DNA of 64,000 nucleotides from Neobacillus drentensis (lineage in GTDB: Bacteria; Bacillota; Bacilli; Bacillales; Cytobacillaceae), in contig NZ_CP091110.1 of NCBI RefSeq assembly GCF_021560175.1, positions 2,718,001 to 2,782,000 on the forward strand. Direction: 5' to 3'. Shown piece by piece: positions 7,955-9,192 of this stretch (position 1 is the first letter of the stretch; each line of letters begins with the position of its first letter). Below the pieces are notes generated by a model that saw nothing but the letters and a program-made list of their open reading frames with translations, did not search any database and was not told the DNA's origin. Position numbers and translations under genes: made by a program.

Positions 7955-7984
7955 TTGTAACATTTGAAATAAATGTAATATAAT
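7955..7984 (+). promoter_or_regulatory. predicted sigma-A promoter of the c-di-GMP riboswitch transcript
   Basis: TTGTAA at 7955-7960 and TATAAT at 7979-7984 are separated by 18 bases. A transcript would begin about 20 bases before the riboswitch aptamer. Confidence 0.6.
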
Positions 7985-8011
7985 TTACTATTAGTTAAAA
8001 CTTTTAATAGA

Positions 8012-8088
8012 TAAAGGCAAACCATTCGAAAGATTGGGACGCAAAGCTACAGGTCTAAGGTTTCACACTATGATGGCTGAGCTGCCTA
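8012..8088 (+). promoter_or_regulatory. c-di-GMP-I (GEMM-I) riboswitch aptamer
   Basis: The sequence carries the hallmarks of the class I cyclic di-GMP aptamer in order: GGCAAACCATTCGAAAGA with the GAAA tetraloop stem, GGGACGCAAAGCTAC, the receptor segment GGTCTAAGG, and the closing TGATGGCTGAGCTGCC. P1a is formed by AGGCA (8015-8019) with TGCCT (8083-8087). The tetraloop stem has one T-T mismatch compared with the common form. The aptamer lies just upstream of the orphan gene at 8119 and controls it through the adjacent hairpin. Family assignment rests on recalled consensus. Confidence 0.93.
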
Positions 8089-8110
8089 AAATAGAATATA
8101 TTTTAGGAGG
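8085..8110 (+). promoter_or_regulatory. riboswitch expression platform: hairpin hiding the Shine-Dalgarno sequence
   Basis: CCTAAAATA (8085-8093) can pair perfectly with TATTTTAGG (8099-8107). The right arm covers the start of the TAGGAGG ribosome binding site (8104-8110). The left arm shares CCT (8085-8087) with the 3' strand of riboswitch helix P1a, so the two helices exclude each other. No intrinsic terminator lies between aptamer and gene. The geometry predicts translational control, with ligand binding freeing the ribosome binding site (an ON switch). That direction is inference. Confidence 0.65.
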
Positions 8111-8118
8111 CTTATATT

Positions 8119-8328
8119 TTGATTGCTCTTACTTGGGAAAAGGAACTGGAGTTAGAATGGGAGAAAGCTAGTGACGAAAATATAGTAGAGGCATATGTAG
8201 TAAGCATATTGAATAAGTGGGACCAAAACCTAAGAAGTTTAGAACAGGAATTAATGAAAAGAAAATTATTTTTAGTTGCTTTAGAGCTCTATGATCGGAA
8301 AAAACGCAGGACCCTATTAAACCTGTAG
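8119..8328 (+). CDS. 69-residue orphan protein under a c-di-GMP riboswitch
   Basis: This gene encodes 69 residues from a TTG start eight bases after TAGGAGG. The protein is soluble, highly charged and probably helical (LTWEKELELEWEKASDENIVE, then LEQELMKRKLFLVALELYDRKKRR). It has no signal peptide, no membrane segment and no domain I recognise. It is transcribed alone: a riboswitch precedes it and a terminator follows. Control by c-di-GMP suggests a part in the switch between motility, surface attachment and sporulation, but nothing in the protein sequence itself shows the function. The start is well supported by the ribosome binding site. Confidence 0.75.
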   Translation: MIALTWEKELELEWEKASDENIVEAYVVSILNKWDQNLRSLEQELMKRKLFLVALELYDRKKRRTLLNL

Positions 8329-8365: not shown

Positions 8366-8401
8366 AGGAGTTCCTAGTTCTTTAGGACTCCTACTTTTTT
8401 A
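8366..8401 (+). terminator. terminator of the riboswitch-controlled gene
   Basis: AGGAGTTCCTA pairs with TAGGACTCCT, with one bulged base, and is followed by ACTTTTTT. Confidence 0.8.
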
Positions 8402-8469: not shown

Positions 8470-9192
8470 ATGACAACAGGAACAGATAATGAATTATCTG
8501 AACGTTTTGAAGTGGCTTTTAACAAAATCCATACTTGGCTGCAAAAAAATATTAAACATGCAAAAACAACCAAATACACGGAATTACTTAGAATCGGTTT
8601 TCCGATCCATGCCATCATTAGAAAACATTATGATGATTTAAAAATATACGGCCGGCTTAGAAACTCCATTGTTCATGACAAAGTGGAACCAGGGTTTTAT
8701 ATCGCGGAACCACATATGAGCGTAGTCGAACAAATTGAACTGATCGCTTCCAAGATTAATGAACCAAGGACGGCCCTTTCGATTGCTACCAAACCCGTAT
8801 TTTATTATCAAGAAGATGCAAAATTAAAGGATATTCTTAAGGTCATTGACCGTAAAAGGTATTCTCTTTATCCAATATACAATCAAAGTGGATATAAATG
8901 GTTGTTAACAGCTGAAGGAATCATTCAATGGTTTTCTCAAAATTTGTTGGAAAGCACAGTTTATTTAGATGAAGTAAGGGTACAAGATCTATATTCTTTC
9001 AATCGGCCCCTTGCGGTTGAGTTTGTAGGAAAGGATACAGATATGTTTGTTGTGGAAGAAATATTTGAAGAGTATCATCAGAAAAATAAAAAATTAGAAG
9101 CGGTCATCCTAACGGAAACAGGGGACCAGAGCGAAAAGCCCCTAGGGATCATTACCTCTTGGGATTTAGTTGAAATTAATGCACTTGAATAA
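8470..9192 (+). CDS. CBS-domain protein
   Basis: This is a cytoplasmic protein of 240 residues. Residues 1-95 are helical, with the segment YGRLRNSIVHDK that is common in small bacterial proteins with a conserved RNxxVH motif. Residues 100-235 look like a tandem CBS pair: MSVVEQIELIASK, the ALSIATKPVFYYQEDAKLKDI segment with YSLYPIYNQSGYKWLLTAEGII, and a second unit ending PLGIITSWDLVEINAL. CBS pairs usually bind adenine nucleotides or cyclic dinucleotides and regulate an attached or partner protein. GAAAAGAGGG lies nine bases before the ATG. Its partner is unknown; the upstream gene is separated from it by a terminator. Confidence 0.8.
   Translation: MTTGTDNELSERFEVAFNKIHTWLQKNIKHAKTTKYTELLRIGFPIHAIIRKHYDDLKIYGRLRNSIVHDKVEPGFYIAEPHMSVVEQIELIASKINEPRTALSIATKPVFYYQEDAKLKDILKVIDRKRYSLYPIYNQSGYKWLLTAEGIIQWFSQNLLESTVYLDEVRVQDLYSFNRPLAVEFVGKDTDMFVVEEIFEEYHQKNKKLEAVILTETGDQSEKPLGIITSWDLVEINALE

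Follow-up and report, generated by a model that had tools for sequence, protein, structure and literature searches.

What does a c-di-GMP riboswitch control when the gene behind it encodes a protein of only 69 residues, and how could the RNA decide whether that protein is made? This question is raised by a locus in the window, by which we mean the whole 64,000-nucleotide stretch that was analysed (positions 2718001-2782000 of the 6.26 Mb source genome). Segment 7955-8400, on the plus strand as are all window features given below, is best explained as a self-contained single-gene unit of promoter, c-di-GMP-I riboswitch with a hairpin that masks the ribosome binding site (RBS), chimeric small protein and terminator. 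A consensus scan placed a sigma-A-type promoter-like site, TTGTAA-18-TATAAT, at 7955-7984 with 10 of 12 matches; the stretch has five promoter-like sites against 2.3 expected, and this one is weak by itself. The Shine-Dalgarno sequence AGGAGG (8105-8110) lies 8 nt upstream of the start codon, and the ORF runs from TTG at 8119 to the stop codon at 8326-8328. Behind it a terminator-like stem (8366-8392) with a U run (8395-8400) folds at -13.7 kcal/mol (z -4.18); a simple terminator scan of the stretch listed no terminator, not even the stem at 8366-8400. The downstream gene (8470-9192) codes for a CBS-domain protein of 240 aa (PF00571, 32.1 bits), and it adjoins the riboswitch unit only in the window and in its closest relative.

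The aptamer occupies 8007-8090 and matched RF01051 with 80.4 bits and RF03167 with 71.4 bits, above the Rfam gathering scores of both families (35 and 59 bits, respectively). The initial annotation had called a c-di-GMP-I aptamer starting at 8012; the call was confirmed and the 5' edge moved five bases upstream. The P2 stem-loop with its GAAA tetraloop (8017-8042) and the P3 stem (8045-8083), both placed by the Rfam alignment, have standard pairs in 11 of 11 leaders. This leader alignment consists of the ten leaders of the 69-aa gene family and one sinI leader of the same genome, L001. P1 pairs 8008-8010 with 8086-8088.

By E-value the best Rfam label of the aptamer is RF03167 (c-di-GMP-I-GGC), yet the window has A8043 where the RF03167 consensus has G at the A47 position, and we rejected the GGC label as to the ligand site. 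The use of a G at this position as the mark of the GGC type is our own reading of the RF03167 consensus and name. The contact positions of c-di-GMP-I riboswitches, as named in PMC4744006, are G20, A47 and C92, and these map to G8016, A8043 and C8085. The ligand is read as c-di-GMP because the three bases are the contacts of ordinary c-di-GMP-I riboswitches. Compared with RF01051 (c-di-GMP-I, GEMM-I), the window aptamer has the same architecture, tetraloop and contacts. It differs in its output gene, a chimera of Sda type, and in its platform, a short hairpin that masks the RBS and has no terminator.

To identify the genes behind this type of leader, we ran a leader covariance model on 193 genomes and read the genes behind the 51 best matches (at least 92.4 bits). 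The model also catches ordinary c-di-GMP-I aptamers, with 183 of the 193 genomes matching at E 1e-8, so the matches below the 51 best are a mixture. Ten of the 51 precede the gene studied here, 36 precede sinI, two precede a broken sinI followed by a Spo0E-like ORF and three precede other ORFs. All 36 sinI genes match PF08671, and they come from six genera. The dedicated output that had been proposed is not an isolated one, as the leader type sits mostly on sinI, including one sinI copy of the same genome. There, the riboswitch of L001 (5172482-5172565, minus strand) precedes a sinI of 48.8 bits to PF08671, and that of L003 (982518-982608, plus strand) precedes a sinI of 53.3 bits which adjoins a SinR-like gene; the PF08671 cut-off is 31.4 bits. 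L001 scored 123.9 bits with the leader model and has the same hairpin leader, whereas L003 scored 66.1 bits and is a more distant version. The genome has five SinI-domain matches, and L168 and L170 are without such a leader.

The likeness to sinI continues into the coding sequence. Over codons 2-15, the DNA of the window gene shares 76% identity with a sinI gene behind the same leader, and over the next 55 bases identity drops to 33%. Control ORFs (156 in the window, the gene itself skipped) reached at most 50% for these codons, and the ten members of the gene family have 52%-79%, all above the control maximum. The leader and first codons are thus sinI-derived, and the remainder of the gene is of Sda-like origin. 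Judged by its sequence, the gene is a sinI-Sda chimera in which the leader and the first 15 or so codons (8119-8163) are sinI-derived. A plain SinI protein was rejected: the window protein has no PF08671 match, and its sinI-derived part is confined to roughly codons 1-15. PMC4342826, in its available part, lists a putative c-di-GMP riboswitch before sinI in Bacillus methanolicus MGA3 and contains no test of its mechanism. The leader and first 15 or so codons of the window gene are of that kind, whereas the remainder of its protein is Sda-like and not SinI. A leader tree of 46 rows of the 51 best matches (L145, L146, L158, L161 and L164 left out) is compatible with one origin of the Sda-like gene and with several.

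Residues 16-51 (8164-8271) form, by profile comparison, a domain homologous to Sda that falls outside the Pfam definition. Profile-profile alignment (hhalign) against 24 Sda proteins gave a probability of 93.3, P = 2.7e-7 and a score of 35.9. The initial annotation had seen no recognised domain; Pfam gave no line for the window protein at E 10 and NCBIfam nothing meaningful (one line at E 0.24), but the profile brings out a divergent Sda domain. About 36 residues are homologous to Sda (PF08970; 1pv0, 3fyr, 3d36), with the SDExxxExY start followed by the helix-2 motif ExE(L/I)xxR(x)L in the same order, and both motifs are kept in the window protein family. In contrast to Sda, the domain is one residue shorter at the turn and has no proline there, and the protein adds a SinI-derived N-terminal extension, a C-terminal helix and riboswitch control. 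The C-terminal extension (LVALELYDRKK...) with the stop codon, 8272-8328, is kept in ten homologues. The Sda residues L21 and F25, which we take to be KinA contacts, are not kept in the alignment with the family, and the kinase may therefore differ from KinA.

Its most likely mode of action is that of Sda: the protein would bind a sporulation histidine kinase and hold down the phosphorylation of Spo0A; we infer both the kinase target and the effect on sporulation. According to PMC4923064, PMC8749435 and PMC12189002, Sda of B. subtilis prevents the activation of Spo0A by blocking KinA, and SinI acts against SinR. In Neobacillus, high c-di-GMP would then yield SinI, which counteracts SinR and promotes matrix, together with an Sda-like brake on the phosphorelay, so that matrix would be favoured over spore. 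PMC4923064 also reports that loss of Sda raises matrix expression in B. subtilis, which complicates this picture as far as the net effect on biofilm is concerned. Two other studies bear on c-di-GMP and sporulation: mid-exponential cells of B. thuringiensis contain more c-di-GMP than those in the sporulation phase (PMC5816809), and in C. difficile it inhibits early sporulation, likely via an unidentified regulatory pathway (PMC8653836).

An alternative of some weight, although doubtful, is that the riboswitch is read correctly and the protein has its target elsewhere, either another histidine kinase or the SinR/SlrR network reached through the SinI-derived start. The loss of the presumed KinA contacts fits this, as do the position of the domain below the Sda cut-off and the SinI-like N-terminus present to some degree in all ten members (52-79% DNA identity). 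Moreover, an Sda-family gene was found in 60 of 60 genomes searched, which makes a new target for the chimera plausible; in the source genome, three further loci exceed the PF08970 cut-off. Against it, the family has kept both the SDExxxExY start and the helix-2 motif, and the part of SinI that binds SinR is missing, in keeping with the absent PF08671 match. We return to the sporulation kinase as the most likely target. With ON control by the riboswitch and a sinI-Sda chimera that works as a kinase-inhibiting brake on sporulation, the whole account has, in our estimate, a little better than an even chance of being right.

How would the leader control this protein? In the leader, CCTAAAATA (8085-8093) pairs with TATTTTAGG (8099-8107) in nine base pairs, closing the loop 8094-8098. 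The hairpin 8085-8107 has a folding energy of -7.3 kcal/mol (z -4.07), which one among 200 dinucleotide shuffles equalled. Pairing of 8079-8083 with 8109-8113 adds five pairs and extends it to an OFF hairpin of 14 pairs with one G.A mismatch (8079-8113; -14.7 kcal/mol), and none of 200 shuffles was as stable. The basic hairpin traps C92 together with the P1 3' strand and half the Shine-Dalgarno sequence. The extended hairpin covers five of the six AGGAGG bases and leaves A8108 unpaired; the extension is absent in some relatives. C8085 is the ligand contact C92, and the two bases after it, C8086 and U8087, are part of the 3' strand of P1, so the hairpin and the liganded aptamer exclude each other. 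In these respects the earlier reading of the leader stood: its hairpin over the RBS, the exclusion of P1 by that hairpin and the 69-residue ORF behind them were all recovered.

The hairpin is kept in all 11 aligned leaders, with standard pairs in 98% of cells, and its loop and spacer vary. C92 pairs downstream in every one of these leaders with a probability of 0.90-1.0. No double changes occur at any hairpin pair among the 11 leaders, so the helix is backed by conservation and not by covariation. In the free fold the middle hairpin pair has a probability of 0.997; with the aptamer pairs forced it drops to 0.015-0.31, varying with the stretch folded. Under RNA parameters that ignore the ligand and tertiary contacts, the aptamer fold is 11-13 kcal/mol less stable than the free one. 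Switching therefore depends on ligand energy and timing, and we infer that the gene is off by default and needs ligand capture during transcription.

Sequence, folding and conservation thus support a c-di-GMP-I riboswitch in which the liganded fold and an RBS-hiding hairpin compete. The best reading of the leader, though unproven, is a translational ON switch, both the ligand response and the ON direction being predictions. In the absence of c-di-GMP, C92 and the P1 strand at the 3' edge of the aptamer would pair downstream, hide the Shine-Dalgarno sequence and keep translation off. When c-di-GMP is captured during transcription of the leader, P1 and C92 would be held in the aptamer, the hairpin would not form and translation would proceed. 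A transcription terminator within the riboswitch platform was also considered and rejected, as the hairpin has no U run after it.

It is unlikely that the leader fails to raise translation with c-di-GMP, being either an OFF switch or controlled by a hairpin that damps translation regardless of c-di-GMP. The hairpin is indeed much more stable than P1, and c-di-GMP-I riboswitches that switch expression off or that bury the RBS once ligand is bound are described in PMC4744006 and PMC11218506. The latter describes Bc1 of B. thuringiensis, which runs in the opposite direction, with the RBS exposed without c-di-GMP and trapped with it. However, the window hairpin is built from C92 and the P1 strand, so that ligand binding and masking exclude each other, and it has no terminator after it. 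The ON switch remains our favoured reading.

The gene had been called an orphan. The homology search named as a check in the initial annotation instead returned nine close relatives, besides the relationship to Sda. Homologues occur in 10 of 61 Neobacillus genomes, the source genome included, and are absent from 51; four weak places (E 0.014-0.094) in this search were excluded from the count. The nine genomes besides the source genome are those of Neobacillus cucumis, N. citreus, N. rhizophilus, N. dielmonensis, N. muris, N. niacini and three Bacillus sp. strains. Over 397 genomes of the order, an even draw that included few carriers, the family profile found the window's own gene alone at E 1e-5. 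The aptamer lies directly upstream of the gene in all ten homologues. The ten loci have six different neighbourhoods, and the constancy of aptamer and gene while the flanks differ indicates that the pair stays together.

That the ORF is an untranslated relic behind a duplicated sinI leader is very improbable. Broken sinI copies do exist behind the same leader type (L139 and L141), but none of the ten homologues has its reading frame interrupted over the matched length, and eight of the nine relatives are only 45-57% identical to the window protein while 19 columns remain invariant. A start codon and a Shine-Dalgarno-like stretch are likewise kept in all ten.

The protein family was also compared with known domains and structures. 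Membership of the Sda family by the Pfam cut-off was not found: the domains of two relatives alone, L016 and L018, scored 16.3 and 15.6 bits with PF08970, whose gathering score is 22.6 bits. The L016 domain matched only PF08970, and the L018 domain scored slightly higher with the T7 Gp5.9 phage family (16.3 bits), both below the cut-offs. In a PDB sequence search with the family profile, Sda chains appeared at E 0.10-0.17 over residues 14-50, ranked under CorA coils (E 0.022). AlphaFold with the ten members only gave one long helix, 19-68, and not the Sda hairpin (pLDDT 83.1, pTM 0.47). The addition of 18 Sda rows turned the model into a hairpin with helices 19-31, 38-47 and 51-68 (pTM 0.72). 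In Foldseek the top match of the latter model was Sda in the KinB-Sda crystal (3d36_C, E 3.9), with all matches at E > 1. A VIA-align comparison had 3d36_C as the best match, with Z 5.5 and an rmsd of 1.4 for 41 residues, but the unrelated chain 3bey_E ties with it in Z (Z 5.4, rmsd 4.4). The 3d36_C match is consistency and not proof, because Sda rows were in the alignment of the model.

The ten-member profile, searched over 193 genomes of the taxonomic family, found the ten genes and 11 weak places in nine genomes at E <= 0.001. By eye, all 11 are of the Sda family: five are canonical sda genes, four of which sit where PF08970 finds sda, and six are paralogues, two of them broken by stops. 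Among the four intact paralogues scanned, three exceed the PF08970 cut-off of 22.6 bits and L066 narrowly misses it with 20.4 bits. A chance likeness between short charged helices, the protein being a new fold or a decayed SinI, is suggested by its shortness, the weak single-sequence scores and the long-helix model, but is hardly credible and was rejected, since none of 200 column shuffles reached half of 35.9 (best 16.6), the reversed profile gave 12.0, SinI against Sda gave 19.7 and all 11 weak places are of the Sda family.

The paralogues L066 (G125) and L068 (G024) have a C-terminal extension, LMKRDLxFEALxR, similar to that of the chimera family, and are possible parents of the chimeric protein. 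They differ from it in having no riboswitch leader, and L068 has an internal stop. None of 44 other Sda loci has the leader of the chimera (43 distinct genes; L038 is the same as L071).

PMC4342826 has thus already reported a putative c-di-GMP riboswitch in front of sinI. No c-di-GMP riboswitch joined to an Sda-type gene was found in a literature search of titles and abstract openings. Our broader proposal is that, in Neobacillus, a c-di-GMP riboswitch with a sinI front end captured an Sda-type kinase inhibitor and made a direct RNA-level circuit that chooses biofilm over spore, with one leader type governing the matrix anti-repressor SinI, the Sda-like brake on the phosphorelay to Spo0A and, in two other genomes, a Spo0E-like gene that follows a broken sinI. 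We regard this proposal as evenly balanced between right and wrong. If true, the c-di-GMP signal would be wired directly into the choice between biofilm and spore by one riboswitch, and small regulators around SinR and Spo0A (SinI, Sda-like and possibly Spo0E-like) would stand under one signal. The locus offers a concrete candidate route by which c-di-GMP could restrain sporulation, made of one riboswitch, one 69-residue protein and one kinase family. It would also illustrate a route to a new riboswitch output, in which the leader and first codons are retained and the rest of the gene is swapped.

The Spo0E-like ORFs, which stand a short way behind the broken sinI in L139 (G170) and L141 (G013), match PF09388 with 51.6 bits each and are a possible further link of c-di-GMP to Spo0A. 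Three more ORFs stand behind the same leader type and belong to no recognised family: a 130-aa ORF in L131 (G037) and similar ORFs of 63-64 aa in L161 (G037) and L164 (G010).

The source genome has seven c-di-GMP-I matches and 16 GGDEF domains, and the latter indicate that c-di-GMP signalling is present. Besides the window riboswitch and the two before sinI, the other four (L004-L007) lie in front of a 54-aa ORF, a hydrophobic peptide of 36 aa that matches DUF3789 weakly and below the cut-off, an ORF of about 300 aa and a short ORF that precedes a LytR-CpsA-Psr gene. In 30 genomes of the genus, with the best c-di-GMP-I match taken in each (L086-L115), several of the thirty riboswitches seem by eye to lie before pilus, motility and EAL-type genes.
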